A DNA stretch of 64,000 bases from Casimicrobium huifangae. GTDB lineage: Bacteria > Pseudomonadota > Gammaproteobacteria > Burkholderiales > Casimicrobiaceae. Made by a program: the position numbers and the translations under genes. Below the pieces are notes generated by a model that did no database searches, was not told the origin of the DNA, and worked only from the letters and a program-made list of their open reading frames with translations. The stretch lies in the NCBI RefSeq assembly GCF_009746125.1, contig NZ_CP041352.1, positions 1-64,000 of the forward strand, written 5' to 3'. Each line of letters opens with the position of its first letter. Within the stretch, counting starts at the first letter, position 1. Below, piece after piece: positions 52,326 to 59,522 of the stretch.

Positions 52326-53072
52326 CTAACTTCCGGCTGCAGCCGCGGCAGCCATCTTGCTCCTCAGTTGTTCGACGCTGAGCACGCCTTCGTGCCGGCT
52401 GCCGTCAGCGAACACAATGGTGGGTGTGACCCGCAGCAGGTGGCGTCGGGCATAGGCTTCGTTGCGCGACAGTGCCGATGCGTCACACTTTGACGCTTTG
52501 CTCATGGTGCTTCGAAGCATCCAGTTTTGCCATGCCCTCTCTGGCGATGCAGCGCACAGGATGCTGCTGCCGCGCTTGCGTGAGTCGGGCCCCAGCATCG
52601 CCACTGGAAAGGTGTGGATGGTGACATCGCCAAGCTTTGCCAGCTCTCTTTCCAGCGCCTTGCAATAGCCGCAGTTGGCATCGGCGAATACGGCGATTCG
52701 ACGTTCTCCCGTACCGCGTCTCGTGGTCAGTGAGTCACGCCACGGCAAATCGGTGAAGGTGATCGCCGTACTCTGATCAACGCGGTCCTTGGTCAGATTG
52801 CGTTGAGTGCCAAGGTCACGCATTTCTCCGTGCACCACGTAGCGACCGCTTTCGTCGGCATAGAACACCACCGCGCCGACCCGAACTTCCCACAGGCCAG
52901 CAACGGGGCTGCGATTGATTGCGTCAATCGCAGGCAATCCCGGCATCCGCTCGCGCAGGCTTTCGCGCAACCGCATCTGCTGCGCGCCGTCGCCGTCCTG
53001 AGCGACGATAGTGCCGCTCCAGCCCGCAAGGGCGGCAGCGATCACCATCAGGCAATGTTTAGTGACTTGCAT
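52326..53072 (-). CDS. DsbC-like periplasmic disulfide isomerase
   Basis: A 248-residue exported thiol protein. ATG 53072 follows a GGAG site and opens a signal peptide (MQVTKHCLMVIAAALAG). The N-terminal region (about 25-100) resembles the DsbC dimerisation domain, and the thioredoxin-like part carries C134-G-Y-C137 (ADANCGYC), the DsbC-type active site, with cis-Pro near T-P-T-I-V-F-A-D. It differs from house-keeping DsbC in sequence and in sitting downstream of a Cys-rich secreted protein gene, 61 bases apart, suggesting a dedicated folding helper. Confidence 0.82.
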   Translation of the reverse strand: MQVTKHCLMVIAAALAGWSGTIVAQDGDGAQQMRLRESLRERMPGLPAIDAINRSPVAGLWEVRVGAVVFYADESGRYVVHGEMRDLGTQRNLTKDRVDQSTAITFTDLPWRDSLTTRRGTGERRIAVFADANCGYCKALERELAKLGDVTIHTFPVAMLGPDSRKRGSSILCAASPERAWQNWMLRSTMSKASKCDASALSRNEAYARRHLLRVTPTIVFADGSRHEGVLSVEQLRSKMAAAAAAGS

Positions 53073-53090
53073 ATTTGACTCCAGAAAGTG

Positions 53091-53118
53091 CCGGGCAGCG
53101 ACGGTCGCCGCTGCCCGG
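53091..53118 (-). terminator. Intercistronic hairpin between secreted-protein and DsbC-like genes
   Basis: A 10-bp perfect stem (CCGGGCAGCG/CGCTGCCCGG, 53091-53100 and 53109-53118) with an 8-base loop and no T run, lying in the 61-bp gap of a probable operon. It may attenuate or protect the message, reducing isomerase relative to substrate. Confidence 0.55.
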
Positions 53119-53133
53119 GCGCAATGGACCAGC

Positions 53134-53916
53134 CTAGAAGCCAGTGCAGGAAGAAGTGTTCGGAACCTGGCCGCAAACCAGACCGCGACCACTGGTAGTG
53201 GTGACCACGAATGGGCAGGCTACGCCGCAGCCTTTCCAGCTTGCGTACCAGCCAAAGTATTGCGAACTGGACTTGGCATAGCCGTAGCGGACGAGATAGC
53301 TGTAGTAGGCGCCGAACGGATTACCCCAAAGCGAAAAGCAGGCAACAGAGGTACCGATTTTGTTCACGTACTTGCAGGACCAGTAGTGTGGATAAGTCAC
53401 TTTCTGGCGATCAGGCGCGAGCGAACCGTCAATCAGGTGTGCTGCATCGGTAGCCGCTCTTGCGTCCATTGCGCCGGTAACGGCAGCCAGGCCAACCCCC
53501 GTCGTGTCGTCGGCGTGCGGTGCAATGGCCACGAAGCTCAGACCGTTGTCTGCCATTCCGAACACCAGTGCTGCTTTCAATGCCGGATTTGCGACACTGC
53601 TCAACGGCACGTAGAGCCTTGCCATGGACTTGGCGTTGCCCAGGACGGCATCATCCTTCCCAGGCAATTCGGCGCTGTCGCCTTGCGCGGCCGCGAAATC
53701 GGCACGCCATCCTGCCAGCGCCAACTCCGCCAGCCGGGCTTTGACATCGGCATCCTTGCCAGCCGCTTCGACCATCATGGCAACGCCATCCAGGCCAAGT
53801 GTCGCCAGCGCGGGTGCTTCCGCTATCGGTGCATTGTCGATCAGCGGTGCCGCGTACAGATCGGCAGTTCCGCCGATAGCCATCGCCAGGGCAACGGCAC
53901 AAAGTAAATGTTTCAT
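53134..53916 (-). CDS. Secreted Cys-rich protein of unknown family
   Basis: A 260-residue exported protein. ATG 53916 follows GGAGG and begins a signal peptide (LLCAVALAMAIGGTADLYA, cleavage near residue 23). The N-terminal half is Ala-rich and helical. The C-terminal 90 residues hold six Cys residues and many Tyr/Trp (Y-P-H-Y-W-S-C...Y-F-G-W-Y-A-S-W-K-G-C-G-V-A-C-P-F), a likely disulfide-bonded domain. It may be matured by the DsbC-like gene just downstream. The promoter has three TCTCGCA repeats (54036-54063) shared with the secreted-protein gene at 57640-58188. No family recognised. Confidence 0.75.
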   Translation of the reverse strand: MKHLLCAVALAMAIGGTADLYAAPLIDNAPIAEAPALATLGLDGVAMMVEAAGKDADVKARLAELALAGWRADFAAAQGDSAELPGKDDAVLGNAKSMARLYVPLSSVANPALKAALVFGMADNGLSFVAIAPHADDTTGVGLAAVTGAMDARAATDAAHLIDGSLAPDRQKVTYPHYWSCKYVNKIGTSVACFSLWGNPFGAYYSYLVRYGYAKSSSQYFGWYASWKGCGVACPFVVTTTSGRGLVCGQVPNTSSCTGF

Positions 53917-54035
53917 GGCATGTCCTCCAGTGGATTGAATTGACGCTTGCGCCGCGCCGTTGAGGGGCAAGCAAGCGGCGTCGCAACCGGGCAGCGTGTC
54001 AAGTCGCGACTGCAGGCACATGTTCTGCGCGGTGG

Positions 54036-54063
54036 TCTCGCAAAGCTCTCGCAGACTCTCGCA
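54036..54063 (-). promoter_or_regulatory. Triple TCTCGCA direct repeat upstream of secreted Cys-rich gene
   Basis: TCTCGCA begins at 54036, 54047 and 54057 (steps of 11 and 10), reading TGCGAGA on the minus strand of the gene. The repeat nearest the gene is 120 bases from its ATG, with a possible -10 (CAGAAC) about 8 bases after it. SARP-type regulators bind such direct heptad repeats next to the -35 region. The same array occurs at 58292-58319. Confidence 0.75.
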
Positions 54064-54262
54064 GCCCCGGCGCAAGGAATGACTGCGCTGCTACCGTCCG
54101 ATGCCGGCAAGCTATCGACATGGGTCGATGCCGTTTGCGAATTGCATCCGCACGCGATGCCATTAGCATGAAAGCGTCGCAACTGCGCTGCGGCGTCGCG
54201 GGCTTCGCCAGTCATGACAGTGGCACCAGCGCCAGCGATCCGGGCAATCACGCTGATTCACC

Positions 54263-57200
54263 ATGCTGCGCCTGACCCTGCTCGGACCATTCACCGTCGC
54301 CATCAATGGCCACGCCATTACGCAGTGGCCGCGCAAGAGCGCGCTGCAACTGCTGCAGCTGCTGGCGATCGCACCCGGACATCGCCTCACGCGTCACGAG
54401 GCGGCACAAGCGCTCGCACGCGACAGCGACGACGAGCAATTGCGTCAGGTGAGCGATGCCCTCTATGCGCTGCGAGGCCGGTCGGCAGACACAGATGGTG
54501 CGGGAAGGTTGGGCGACTACGTGGGCGCCTCGGCGGACGCAATCTGGCTCGAGACAGAGGGCTGTCAGATCGAAATTGATCTTGCGCAGTTCGAGCAGGC
54601 GGCCAATGACGCGTTGGCGGCCGACGCACGGGCACGACTGCCTCTGCTGCAAGCCGCCGTCGCCTCCTGCAACGGCCCGCTGCTCGCCGGGCTATTGCCG
54701 ACTATCGAAGCGGCAGTGGCACCGACACGTCTGCACATTGAGCAGCTCTATCTGGGCTGCGCCAGGGCATTGGTTGGCGAGTACATGCAGCTTGGGCATG
54801 TCGATCATGCCATCGTTGCGCTGCAGAACATACTGCGGATTGTGCCCAGTGACGAAGAGAGCCACCGGCAGCTGATCGAGATCTACGCCACCCTTGGCCG
54901 CTACCACGAAGCGGAGCAGCAATTGCTGCTCTGTCGTACCGTACTGGCGCGTGATCTCGGGCTGAAGCCGTCAGCAGCGACCATCGATTCAATCCGTCTG
55001 GCGCGCGAACGTCGTCTGGCTGGGCAGCAGACAACGGCAGCGGGCAACGTCACGGCGAACACAGACGCCACAACGCCCGACGCCGTGCAGCGCTATGCGC
55101 CTCCCAGATCGCTGGTACGGCTGATTGGTCGCGATACTGCGATCGCACGGCTGGTGGAGCACCTGCGCGCGGCTGATGTGCCGGCGCTACTGACGCTATG
55201 CGGCATTGGTGGCATCGGAAAGACGCAGTTGGCCCTGGAAGTGGCGCACCGCATCGCCCGCGACCGCAGACATGGTGCTGCTGTGGTTGACCTGACGCGC
55301 GTCCCTGATGCGGGCGCGGTGGCACGAGCCGTGGCGATGACGCTTGGCATCAAGCGCACCGACGGACGCTCGTGGCAGGAGCGCCTGCAACAACATCTCG
55401 CGCCGCTGGACTTGCTGCTGGTACTCGACAACTTTGAGCACGTCCACCGGGCGGCGCCGTGGCTTGCATCATTGATTGAGCAGTCACCCACACTCACCGT
55501 CCTTTGCACTTCAAGGTTTCCGCTGCTTCTGCGCGGCGAGCAGGTGTTTGACGTTGACCCGCTGATAACGCAGCATGCGCCCGCGCCGAATATGAATACG
55601 CGTGACCTCGCCGCTGCCCCCAGTGACGCGGCAGCCCTGTTTCTGCGCGCTGCGCGGAGCCAACGGGCGCAGTGCGTTGATGCCGCTCGTGATCTGACCG
55701 TGATAGAAGAGGTCTGCTGGCGGCTCGATGGCTTGCCACTGGCGATTGAGCTCGCGGCAGCGCGCGCCTGCGTGATCGGCATCCAGCCCCTGCTTGTCGA
55801 ACTGTCCACGCAGCATGTGGCGCTGGTCAATCCCATGCGCGATGCGCCGCCTCGTCACACGTCGTTGCAGGAGTTGCTGAAGTCAACCTGCGCCATCCTC
55901 GACGACGACTGCAAAGTCGGTCTCGGTTACGCCGCGCATTTCGAAGCAGGGTTCACGCTAGTGCAGTTTGCCGACAGCGGATTGTTCGACGGCATCAATA
56001 GCGAGCGCATTCTCGGGCAACTGCTTGAGGCGCGCGTTGTTGCCGTGGACGTCGCAAGGGCAGCCGATATGCGTGCCGAACCGGCGCCCCGTTTCCGTCT
56101 GCTGGAAACCATGCGGTCTTACGCACGCCATTCCGACTGGATGGACGACGCCAGTCGGCAGCGCATTACCGGCGCGTTCATTGACCGCTGGCACCGTTTT
56201 GCCCGACGGGTGAGCGATAGCCGTCATACACCGCAGGAGCGCGACCGCTTTGAGGAGTTCGAGCGTGAATTCGAGAACATTGCCGGTGCGATCCGGCTGG
56301 CCGCGCGCGTCAATCGTCCAGCCGCTCGCGAGCTGATTGCCTTTCTGTGGGCGCCTTGCGTTCGGCGCGGCCACATCTACGATCTGGTTGGCTGGATCGA
56401 AGACGAACACCTGCTGCAGGACATCACTGGCGGTAGCCCGGATGAGCTGGCACTGCTCGTCGCTGCCTGTGAGGTCTATCGCGCTGCGGCGCGTTACCCG
56501 CTCGCCCAGCGCTGCGGCGAGATGGCGCTTGCGAACATACGTCTGCCCAGTGCTGATGCCGTGGCGATACATCTTTCTCTGGCCTACGCCTACCTGATCC
56601 AGAGCGAGTGGACAACCGGCACCGTCCACGCGCATGAGGCCTTTGCCGCTGCGCTGGCAGCGCGCGATGAACGGGGAGAGCTGGACACGCGTATCCTGCT
56701 TACCACGCTGGAGCATCGTGCCGGGCACTATCCCGAAGCACGAACGCACGGCACCGTCGCCCGCGACATCTGTATCCGGCGTCACATCGACATGCCCATC
56801 CGGTTGATCGGAAATCTCGCATTGAGTCTCCGCTTCGCCGGTGACTTCGGTGGCGCCATAGCGCTCTATGCGTCTGCGGCAGAACGCTGCCGTGTTGAGC
56901 GGGAGGGGCGCGCCGAAGCAATCATGACGCTCGATCAGGCCGAGTGCGAACTGCTCGCGCTTGACCTGCCGCGCGCGAACGAATCACTGCAACGTGCAGA
57001 AGCGCTGGTCTCGACTCACCGCATGACCATTCTGCAATGCGTGCTGCATCAACAGCGGGGGGCCTACCATCTGCTCCATGGCAACCCCACGACGGCAGCC
57101 GAGGCGCTGAATCAGAGCATGGAATCCATGCCCGCCGGCTCGCACTTCGAGCAAGCCGACATCACCCTCGTCTGGCTGGCCAACGCCTGTCTGGCAACCG

Positions 57201-57565
57201 GCGACTGGCGGGCGGCGGTGAAGGCGGCCGTGCGGTTGACGTCATCGGAAACGAAAGTACGGCGCTATCTGGAACCCTTCGTGGTGGACACCGTCGCCTC
57301 GGTGTTGACGGCGGTGAACGTCGCCGAAGCCGCAACGTTGCGCAGCGCTGCAGGGCGCTTGCGCGAGCGTGACGGTCTCACACTGTCGCCCGCCGAGGAA
57401 AAGCTGCTTGACGAGGCTGCTGCACGGCGGCGCCCACCAGTACCGCAACCGTCGCCGCAGGTTCCCGAACGATTCTCGCCGTTACCGGCCAGCTTGATGA
57501 CGCACTGTCACGCGGCACTGGCCAGGGCGCAGGAAACCACCGAATCTGCCGCGATCAACACGTAG
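54263..57565 (+). CDS. AfsR/SARP-type STAND transcriptional regulator
   Basis: A 1100-residue DNA-binding signal-transduction ATPase. The N-terminal winged helix (about 1-95, L-L-G-P-F-T-V-A-I-N-G) and a bacterial transcriptional activation domain (about 100-245) are as in SARP regulators of Actinobacteria. An NB-ARC ATPase follows, with Walker A GIGGIGKT at 314-321, Walker B LLLVLDN at 384-390 and sensor T-S-R-F near 418. The remaining 500 residues are helical, probably TPR-like sensor repeats. Such large SARPs are rare in Proteobacteria. It lies between two secreted-protein genes whose promoters share TCTCGCA repeats and is the obvious candidate to bind them. Confidence 0.9.
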   Translation: MLRLTLLGPFTVAINGHAITQWPRKSALQLLQLLAIAPGHRLTRHEAAQALARDSDDEQLRQVSDALYALRGRSADTDGAGRLGDYVGASADAIWLETEGCQIEIDLAQFEQAANDALAADARARLPLLQAAVASCNGPLLAGLLPTIEAAVAPTRLHIEQLYLGCARALVGEYMQLGHVDHAIVALQNILRIVPSDEESHRQLIEIYATLGRYHEAEQQLLLCRTVLARDLGLKPSAATIDSIRLARERRLAGQQTTAAGNVTANTDATTPDAVQRYAPPRSLVRLIGRDTAIARLVEHLRAADVPALLTLCGIGGIGKTQLALEVAHRIARDRRHGAAVVDLTRVPDAGAVARAVAMTLGIKRTDGRSWQERLQQHLAPLDLLLVLDNFEHVHRAAPWLASLIEQSPTLTVLCTSRFPLLLRGEQVFDVDPLITQHAPAPNMNTRDLAAAPSDAAALFLRAARSQRAQCVDAARDLTVIEEVCWRLDGLPLAIELAAARACVIGIQPLLVELSTQHVALVNPMRDAPPRHTSLQELLKSTCAILDDDCKVGLGYAAHFEAGFTLVQFADSGLFDGINSERILGQLLEARVVAVDVARAADMRAEPAPRFRLLETMRSYARHSDWMDDASRQRITGAFIDRWHRFARRVSDSRHTPQERDRFEEFEREFENIAGAIRLAARVNRPAARELIAFLWAPCVRRGHIYDLVGWIEDEHLLQDITGGSPDELALLVAACEVYRAAARYPLAQRCGEMALANIRLPSADAVAIHLSLAYAYLIQSEWTTGTVHAHEAFAAALAARDERGELDTRILLTTLEHRAGHYPEARTHGTVARDICIRRHIDMPIRLIGNLALSLRFAGDFGGAIALYASAAERCRVEREGRAEAIMTLDQAECELLALDLPRANESLQRAEALVSTHRMTILQCVLHQQRGAYHLLHGNPTTAAEALNQSMESMPAGSHFEQADITLVWLANACLATGDWRAAVKAAVRLTSSETKVRRYLEPFVVDTVASVLTAVNVAEAATLRSAAGRLRERDGLTLSPAEEKLLDEAAARRRPPVPQPSPQVPERFSPLPASLMTHCHAALARAQETTESAAINT

Positions 57566-57592
57566 CACTTAACCGGTCAGCATAGAACGCTG

Positions 57593-57626
57593 GCGGTGGG
57601 CAGCCCTGCGAGGCACTACCCACCGC
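57593..57626. terminator. Hairpin between convergent genes
   Basis: An 8-bp stem GCGGTGGG/CCCACCGC (57593-57600 and 57619-57626) separates the end of the AfsR-like gene from the end of the secreted-protein gene at 57640. No T run is present, so termination is only suggested. Confidence 0.4.
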
Positions 57627-57639
57627 GCAGCAAGCCTGG

Positions 57640-58188
57640 CTACAGGAAGAACGCCAGCACTTTGGCGATGATCTTGGCCCAGCTCGGCGGCACACCAACA
57701 GCGCCGAGCGCGGTTGCGATGCCGACAACTTCCCACGAAGTTACCTGATCCATTGCTGCCAGCACCGGGTTGATGTGCCCCATGTACCAGACGTAGGCGC
57801 GTTCGCTAGCGGCACGCAGGGCGGCCTTGAACGCGGACGACTTGAGAATCGCCTTGGCCAAGACCGTCTTCCAGCTCTTTTGCTGGTCCGAAGTACTGGC
57901 TTCGCCGGGGTGAGCCGCTGCAGCGTCGACATAAATGGCGTGCAGCTCGGCGAACTGGCCTTCGTCGAGGGCGTCGATGCTCTGGATCAGCTGCTGATCG
58001 ACAGCCACGTCGTTCAGGGTCACCTCAACAGCAGCATTGGATTGCTGGGCGGCGCGCTGCGCGAGACCGGTCGCGAAGGCGCTGTTCATGCTAATGCAGG
58101 CGATCAGCATCGCCGCAATCGCAGCACGTCCGCGACGCAGCGGGTGATGATTTGAATCAGACGGGGACGTAGCGAAGTTGGTATCCAT
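57640..58188 (-). CDS. Secreted helical protein with hydrophobic C-terminus, unknown family
   Basis: A 182-residue protein starting at ATG 58188 (GGAG nine bases upstream). A polar 22-residue lead is followed by a signal peptide (AAIAAMLIACISMNSAFA, cut near 40). The mature part is acidic and helical (Q-S-I-D-A-L-D-E-G-Q-F-A-E-L), then basic (Q-Q-K-S-W-K-T-V-L-A-K). The final 35 residues are strongly hydrophobic and bacteriocin-like (V-T-S-W-E-V-V-G-I...A-K-I-I-A-K-V-L-A-F-F-L). The upstream triple TCTCGCA array matches that of the Cys-rich secreted gene. Function unknown; a membrane-active peptide is one possibility. Confidence 0.7.
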   Translation of the reverse strand: MDTNFATSPSDSNHHPLRRGRAAIAAMLIACISMNSAFATGLAQRAAQQSNAAVEVTLNDVAVDQQLIQSIDALDEGQFAELHAIYVDAAAAHPGEASTSDQQKSWKTVLAKAILKSSAFKAALRAASERAYVWYMGHINPVLAAMDQVTSWEVVGIATALGAVGVPPSWAKIIAKVLAFFL

Positions 58189-58291
58189 GTGTCGTTACTC
58201 CATTGATTTGTCAGATTGCTTGATGGCGATAGCCGGCTGGCGTCGCCCATCAGCCAAGGTTCTGGCTGACACTGACGTTGTACGGGCGCGC

Positions 58292-58319
58292 TCTCGCAGG
58301 GCTCTCGCAAGCTCTCGCA
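58292..58319 (-). promoter_or_regulatory. Triple TCTCGCA direct repeat upstream of secreted helical gene
   Basis: TCTCGCA begins at 58292, 58303 and 58313 (steps 11 and 10), the exact spacing seen at 54036-54063. The nearest copy is 104 bases from the ATG at 58188. On the gene strand, TACAAC lies about 9 bases downstream of the last TGCGAGA and may be the -10. Confidence 0.75.
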
Positions 58320-58416
58320 GCGCCAATGACGCAGGAAAAATCGGATGAAACTCTATCGACCGCGTGTTGTTGGCGAATTCAGCGGTGAACAGAGGAGATG
58401 CGAGCGCCTGGGTGCG

Positions 58417-59451
58417 CTACGCCAGCGGGAAGTTTTGACTGACCCAGGCGTCGTTGTGATACGTGTTCAGATAGCGTTCGCCCGAGTCGCAGATCAGCGC
58501 CAGCAGGGAACCCTGCATGCCATTCGTTTTCATGGCGCCAGCCAGTTGCAGCATCGCGTGAAAACTGGTGCCGGTGGATGGCCCGACCTTGCGGCCGAGG
58601 TGCGCAGAGAGATCACGCATCGCGGCGATCGAATCACGGTCGCTCACGGTAAGCAATTCGTCCACCAGCTCGCGGATAAAGCTTGCCTCCACGCGTGGCC
58701 GCCCGATGCCCTCGATGCGCGATCCGCTCGAGGTCAATGTCGTGTCTCCCGTCCGCCAGTAGTCGGCGAAGACCGACCCGGCTGGATCGGAAACGCAGAC
58801 GCGGCTAACGTGCCGGTGATAGCGCACGTAACGGCCGATGGTGGCGCTGGTGCCGCCGGTGCCGGCACCCACCACAATCCAGTGCGGTATCGGGTGCCGC
58901 TCATGGGCCATCTGGGTGAAGATGCTGTCAGCAATATTGTTGTTGCCGCGCCAGTCGGTGGCGCGCTCGGCGTAGGTGAACTGGTCCATGTAATGCCCGC
59001 CCGTTTCGCGTGCAAGCTGGCGTGACGCGTCATACACCTCGGCGGCACGCTCGACGAAATGACAGCGCCCACCATAGAACTCGATCTGTGCGATCTTCTC
59101 CGCCGAAGTGCTGCGCGGCATCACGGCGATGAACGGCAGGCCAAGCAGTCGTGCGAAGTAGGCCTCGCTGACCGCAGTGGAACCGCTCGACGCCTCGATC
59201 ACCGTCTGCCCTTCACTGAGCCAGCCATTGCACAGCGCGTAGAGGAACAGCGAGCGCGCCAGCCGATGCTTCAGGCTGCCGGTCGGGTGCGTCGATTCGT
59301 CCTTGAAGTAGAAGTCGATCCCCACGTCGGCGAACCCGGCGATCGGCAGTGCAATCAGATGGGTGTCGGCCGAACGCTGGAAGTCCGCTTCGATGCGGCC
59401 AATTGCCTGTGCGAGCCAGTCACCGCGTGCAGGGGAAGGGGGTTTCGACAT
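58417..59451 (-). CDS. Cysteine-synthase-like PLP enzyme
   Basis: Fold-type II PLP protein of 344 residues. The PLP lysine is K61 in [10 protein letters not shown], followed by the A-S-S-G-S-T-A-V-S loop near 85-93 and the Gly-rich V-G-A-G-T-G-G-T-S near 185-193. This subgroup resembles O-acetylserine/cystathionine synthase-like proteins acting on amino acids, but T-G-S-L-K-H and the extended C-terminus set it apart; the substrate is unknown. ATG 59451 is used; a GTG 19 codons upstream is possible. Head-to-head with a glutamine amidotransferase gene. Confidence 0.85.
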
Positions 59452-59522
59452 GGTGGCAAGCCGCGTGCAATAATGGTCCGCAAGCGTAACAGCCGCTGCG
59501 GCATGCACCCGCAGCCCTGCCC

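Follow-up and report, generated by a model that had tools for sequence, protein, structure and literature searches.

The first 64,000 nucleotides of contig NZ_CP041352.1 of Casimicrobium huifangae (the window, by which we mean this whole stretch) contain a gene for a large SARP-type regulator with a triple heptad repeat on either side of it. This arrangement raises the question of whether the two arrays are operators through which the regulator controls the exported proteins encoded beside them. Along the window, the order is a DsbC-like gene, exported protein 1, array 1, the regulator, exported protein 2, array 2, and a PLP-dependent enzyme (Table 1).

Table 1. Features of the regulator locus, with positions counted from the first base of the window
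Feature	Positions	Strand	Remarks
DsbC-like thiol-disulfide isomerase	52326..53072	-	start codon chosen by eye
Exported protein 1	53134..53916	-	260 aa; signal peptide assigned by eye; last 80 residues contain six cysteines
CAGAAC, very weak -10-like hexamer	54022..54027	-	8 bases past last heptad of array 1; by eye, weak
Array 1, TGCGAGA three times	54036..54063	-	steps 10 and 11 on minus strand; proposed as SARP operator for the exported protein 1 gene
SARP-STAND-TPR regulator	54263..57565	+	1100 aa; winged helix and BTAD, then NTPase (P-loop GIGGIGKT) and TPR
Exported protein 2	57640..58188	-	182 aa; predicted helical; signal peptide assigned by eye
TACAAC, weak -10-like hexamer	58277..58282	-	9 bases past last heptad of array 2; sister species has the same hexamer at the same place
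Array 2, TGCGAGA three times	58292..58319	-	steps 10 and 11 on minus strand; proposed as SARP operator for the exported protein 2 gene
PLP-dependent enzyme	58417-59508	-	

A preliminary description had placed the regulator in the SARP/AfsR class, and our comparisons support this placement. The protein begins with an OmpR-type winged helix followed by a BTAD domain (Pfam, 2.1e-16) and ends in a STAND/NOD NTPase and TPR part, which is the build of the class. Matches to AAA_22, NB-ARC, and TPR fall just below the Pfam cut-offs; the ortholog in a sister species exceeds those for AAA_22 and NB-ARC. The NCBIfam AfsR model matched over 2 to 434 (7.1e-06), far below the cut-off of that model. A profile of 264 positions built from 14 N-terminal SARPs, the window protein included, matched the structures of AfsR (8hvr; 3.7e-26, positions 9 to 254) and EmbR (2fez; 1.1e-25, positions 4 to 257) over nearly the whole SARP domain; designed TPR proteins outscored both in this search, through the TPR-like part. 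For residues 1 to 265, the AlphaFold model is of low confidence (mean pLDDT, 52.7), and its order of strands and helices is that of a winged helix.

Six residues (Q48, W74, P79, T88, R94, and K95) are given as highly conserved DNA contacts of Streptomyces SARPs in the available text of PMC10936776. At these AfsR positions, in an alignment made by eye, the window regulator has R, A, D, D, R, and G, so that one of the six (R94) is kept. The same text names AfsR R92 for specific DNA contacts; this position, again by eye, is Ala in the window regulator and Gln in the regulator of a second locus, in genome G082, described below. Because only one of the six residues is kept, and because they are stated for Streptomyces SARPs and do not define the family, we regard the window protein as a divergent relative of the AfsR-type SARPs. 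The replaced residues may fit a different heptad, or they may signal weaker or other binding, and they are the main point against the reading that this regulator binds the arrays.

The arrays themselves are confirmed as first observed. TCTCGCA occurs on the plus strand at 54036, 54047, and 54057 and again at 58292, 58303, and 58313, with steps of 11 and 10 in both places, and the distances originally given from the arrays to the start codons at 53916 and 58188 (120 and 104 bases, respectively) are correct. Both exported-protein genes lie on the minus strand, and on this coding strand the arrays read TGCGAGA-GTC-TGCGAGA-GCTT-TGCGAGA and TGCGAGA-GCT-TGCGAGA-GCCC-TGCGAGA, each in the same orientation relative to its own gene. 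Single copies of the heptad are ordinary, with 16 in the window on both strands against 13.9 expected; the lone copy in dnaA described earlier is one of 10 that lie outside the arrays. The triple arrays, in contrast, are out of the ordinary. When the window was scanned for triple repeats of any 7-mer at steps of 7 to 13, these two sites were the only ones found, and among 40 first-order Markov copies of the window compared on the same basis, 36 had no triple, 3 had one, and 1 had two.

Nor is the array frequent in the genome at large (4,465,898 bases in one contig). With up to three mismatches allowed, it was found at exactly two places, the promoters beside the regulator, both with no mismatch, and a reversed control pattern gave no match at the same threshold. 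Even two-copy sites (TGCGAGA-N3/4-TGCGAGA) occur in this genome only inside the two arrays. Across 100 relatives, a set that includes the organism itself and its sister species, the same threshold gave matches in 14 genomes, compared with 7 for the reversed control; three-mismatch matches in relatives are near chance level, and only the match in the sister species has as few as one mismatch. When the array pattern was searched in 64 genomes of the family, matches with no mismatch were limited to the organism's own genome and that of the sister species, and matches with two mismatches were found in two others.

Both promoters share a layout, which on the coding strand consists of the three heptads, 8 to 9 bases, and a weak -10-like hexamer. 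A sigma-70 promoter search of the two upstream regions returned no match. SARP sites are characterized, in the available text of PMC10936776, as direct repeats 11 or 22 bp apart whose 3' repeat is 8 bp from the -10 element, and the target promoters as weak. The steps of 10 and 11 and the interval of 8 to 9 bases agree with this scheme. The preliminary description noted that SARP-family regulators bind direct heptad repeats next to the -35 region, and this comparison is supported in a refined form: the layout is like that of published SARP operators, and the heptads here occupy the -35 place itself. Shortly downstream of the -10-like hexamer, the leader of gene 2 also has a perfect inverted repeat of 7 bp (TCAGCCA-N6-TGGCTGA, 58250 to 58269), which the sister species retains in shortened form (CAGCC...GGCTG). 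This repeat is a candidate for a leader hairpin or a second operator.

The two proteins downstream of the arrays are orphans by the searches that we made. Neither has a Pfam, PHROG, or PADLOC match or an NCBIfam match near the cut-off. Exported protein 1 gave one weak match besides itself in the 100 relatives (E value, 9.9e-4), which we take as chance. Of its seven cysteines, one is in the signal peptide and the other six are clustered near the C terminus (Table 1). The DsbC-like gene follows after 61 bases and is probably co-transcribed with it, and because of these cysteines and the closeness of this gene, exported protein 1 is probably disulfide-bonded. Exported protein 2 is predicted to be helical, with block pLDDT values of 77 to 93 from residue 71 on and one block at 67; Foldseek returned no structural relative at an E value of 0.001 or better, and a search for plasmid and viral relatives found none.

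A species of the same genus (G011) carries the only full-length ortholog of the regulator among the 100 relatives, the organism's own genome included (67% identity), in a search that scored the best seven candidates per genome and could miss a weak ortholog. Full-length regulators in 60 genomes of the family were likewise confined to these two species, and in a search of contigs the only other full-length relative was on JAPUER010000055.1, the contig of the sister locus. The sister genome also has the only ortholog of exported protein 2 among the 100 relatives (76%). Only these two species carry the locus. In the sister, the order is pckG, the regulator, a 211-aa exported protein, protein 2, an array, and the PLP enzyme. 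The 211-aa protein (L020:10346-10981), encoded between the regulator and protein 2 and on the strand of the latter, has a weak YD-repeat match.

Conservation between the two species points to selection on the array. In the array ahead of protein 2, 26 of 28 bases are kept, as are 18 of the next 20, which include TACAAC, whereas the 60 bases upstream keep 38 (gapped alignment) and the fourfold sites of the regulator keep 169 of 421; we take the array to be under selection because it and the bases downstream of it are kept above both the upstream stretch and the fourfold sites. The rest of the gene 2 leader keeps 65 of 83 bases, so the array is not the sole conserved element. The one orthologous locus that retains the regulator therefore retains an array as well, and the absence that the preliminary description had named as grounds for refutation was not found; nor was frequent occurrence across the genome, another ground that it had named.

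The sister species also indicates which gene the array serves. Its genome, when searched, contained no relative of exported protein 1, and there is no array between pckG and the regulator; the best match in a scan around the sister regulator was the protein 2 array alone. Since the sister keeps the array at protein 2 and has none at the start of the regulator gene, the array belongs to the exported-protein promoters and not to the regulator's own start. Autoregulation through array 1 was considered and judged unlikely on the same grounds, and the regulator itself is probably outside array control. The locus had been proposed as a self-contained regulon, and this is partly supported: the array is unique to the two promoters and is kept with the regulator in the sister. 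In the window, pckG and the regulator are separated by exported protein 1, the DsbC-like gene (genes at 52326 to 53916), and their array, which are absent at the corresponding place in the sister (L020:6426-6823), a difference that suggests a gain or loss of these genes together with the array.

We consider it probable that the SARP-STAND-TPR regulator, whose gene lies between the arrays, uses them as operators and activates both genes. Copies of its N-terminal winged-helix/BTAD domain would bind side by side on the heptads, which are 10 to 11 bp apart, and would share one face of the DNA in place of the missing -35 element; the bound regulator would then recruit RNA polymerase to two weak promoters. 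Promoter 1 would drive exported protein 1 and its DsbC-like helper, promoter 2 would drive exported protein 2, and the NTPase and TPR part would gate the SARP domain upon a signal. Besides the replaced contact residues, several findings weigh against this reading: the very poor -10-like hexamer of gene 1, the good conservation of the remaining gene 2 leader, the confinement of the locus to two species, and the lack of exact triples at other BTAD loci described below.

The arrays could instead be bound by a regulator encoded elsewhere, for example, an OmpR/PhoB-type response regulator, with the SARP gene controlling something else. Response regulators of this type also recognize direct repeats of about 11 bp in tandem, heptad grammar alone cannot tell SARPs from other winged-helix activators, and the AfsR contact residues are mostly replaced in the window protein. 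We nevertheless think this alternative unlikely, since within the genome the array is confined to the two flanks of the SARP gene, accompanies that gene in the sister species, and has no second instance that would mark another regulator gene. A poorer candidate is that the regulator acts on the arrays as a repressor, or that the arrays work in an RNA leader rather than as DNA operators. Such readings would suit the partly conserved leader of gene 2 with its inverted repeat, and the start sites of both genes are putative; however, the heptads end 8 to 9 bases before the -10-like hexamer and replace the -35 element, which in published cases is the place of an activator, and direct repeats in helix register are what one expects of sites in DNA rather than of hairpins in RNA, so that we regard these readings as distinctly improbable. 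It is hardly credible that the arrays arose by chance or slippage and have no function: the single heptad is indeed at chance frequency in the window, but the same three units with the same steps occur twice with different spacers, and the array is unique to this locus in the genome, kept across species, and rarely matched in shuffled copies.

Activation by the neighboring SARP regulator, the reading we favor, gains a second, independent case from another family of the same order. Among 41 loci examined, N-terminal SARP domains were found in four regulators besides that of the sister species, namely, those of G082 (locus L061) and of loci L059, L060, and L062. The G082 regulator (L061:7100-10516, in a locus extending to 13395) has the same build, and its N-terminal SARP domain is 32% identical to that of the window regulator. 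An array of three CGGAAGA heptads with steps of 11 and 11 (L061:11927-11955) is followed after nine bases by TATCGT and after 72 bases by a gene for a methyltransferase. A second array (TGGAAGA-TTTC-CGGAAGA, L061:10545-10562), also with a nine-base interval, in this case to TACCGT, precedes the gene for an exported thioredoxin-like protein. No near-exact triple arose in 20 Markov copies of the G082 locus, and the genome contains no other copy of the three-heptad array when up to three mismatches are allowed. In its genus, the regulator is present in one of four genomes and the exact array in one of four, the same genome; another genome has a three-mismatch match to the array and also a match to the reversed control.

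The G082 locus resembles that of the window in having two arrays beside the regulator, an interval of nine bases between the last heptad and a -10-like hexamer, and an exported thiol protein among the targets. It differs in its heptad (CGGAAGA) and steps (11 and 11), in having one array of two heptads and one of three, in two promoters that are alike beyond their arrays, and in its other target genes. The genes at L061:10637-13395 encode an AhpC/TSA-type thioredoxin-like protein, a DsbD_N-like protein, the methyltransferase, and a bacterial globin; periplasmic thiol chemistry is common to the two loci. No such array was found at the other three SARP loci (L059, L060, and L062). The SARP-STAND regulator at L060 (629-8471), from a genome of the organism's own genus (G015), adjoins genes that by eye are like those for type III secretion export (SctR, SctT, and SctU), and no heptad triple was seen beside it.

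Triple heptads are not a general companion of BTAD proteins, an idea that we rejected. Such proteins were found in 89 of 399 genomes of the order; some genomes have at least nine matches, and several of these that we examined begin like MalT-type NTPases. In 100 other BTAD neighborhoods (1.445 Mb), chosen by hand among the matches listed, there was no exact triple at steps of 10/11, and near-exact triples numbered 15 at these steps, compared with 19 at steps of 13/14 and 13 at 16/17 (intergenic only, 7 versus 7 and 7). The BTAD domain is N-terminal in 24 of the 113 proteins found by profile, and the others that were inspected start, by eye, like MalT-type NTPases. We analyzed 23 N-terminal SARPs, window and sister included, after dropping L062:11544-13376 by hand as CadC-like. 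An intergenic triple matching at least 19 of 21 positions was the best at 10 of the 23 loci, compared with 4, 3, 3, and 4 of 23 for four control sets of steps; the G082 array is absent from these 10, as the crude gene caller masked it. The Fisher p value is 0.007 for all 23, 0.03 without window and sister (8 of 21), and 0.013 if the G082 array is added, values that are rough because related loci were counted separately and the test was chosen after the data were seen. There is thus a modest excess of triples near N-terminal SARPs, and the array claim rests on the window pair, the sister species, and G082.

Two further observations came from this survey. In three related small regulators of the SARP type, CGTCTAT repeats with steps of 10 to 11 lie just upstream of the regulator's own gene (L114:5642-5669, L118:9713-9740, and L127:5628-5656), which would fit autoregulation. 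The organism's own genome encodes a second BTAD protein (704 aa; G000:C1:3326377-3326811), around which no exact heptad triple was found in 17 kb; one repeat matching 19 of 21 positions lies at L209:14271, more than 5 kb from the gene.

A wider interpretation, which we put forward tentatively and think unlikely, is that a STAND-sensor locus outside the actinobacteria can serve as a self-contained alarm, in which an AfsR-like sensor would detect a threat or signal and fire exactly two promoters in the genome, releasing two lineage-specific exported proteins, one of them disulfide-bonded with a DsbC-like helper. If this were so, SARP heptad operators would be old, portable wiring in which each regulator comes with a heptad of its own. 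Two distant SARP-STAND loci of betaproteobacteria share one layout but not the heptad, which suggests that sensor regulons and their exported products may be readable from sequence.

Among known systems, EmbR of Mycobacterium tuberculosis (2fez) shares the winged helix plus BTAD with the window regulator and has an FHA domain where the latter has its NTPase and TPR part. The SARP operators described in the literature that we found serve antibiotic control in Streptomyces (PMC10936776 and PMC5930380), and our literature searches showed, among the papers listed, no described operator for a BTAD protein of this order. PimR, the SARP-LAL regulator of the pimM promoter in Streptomyces natalensis, likewise uses heptads on the coding strand: three are spaced by 4 bases, a secondary site has a spacer of 3 bases, and at least two heptads are required for binding (available text of PMC5930380); the 10-bp step of the window arrays resembles this secondary site. 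PimR differs in its C-terminal half, in its heptad (CGGCAAG), in a site upstream of the -35 element, and, as that text has it, in having one target gene and a role in antibiotic control. AfsR of Streptomyces coelicolor is about as long as the window regulator and, like it, joins a winged helix and BTAD to an NTPase and TPR part in a single protein, and the afsS promoter, as far as the available text describes it, has direct repeats 11 bp apart that end 8 bp before a suboptimal -10 element. The window system, in contrast, is betaproteobacterial, has three heptads of a different sequence with one step of 10 bp, targets exported proteins and not a small regulator gene, and has most of the named DNA-contact residues replaced. 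It seems best described as a system of the AfsR/SARP kind that would be new in being betaproteobacterial, in reaching, so far as its heptad indicates, only two promoters in the genome, and in having orphan exported proteins as its targets.
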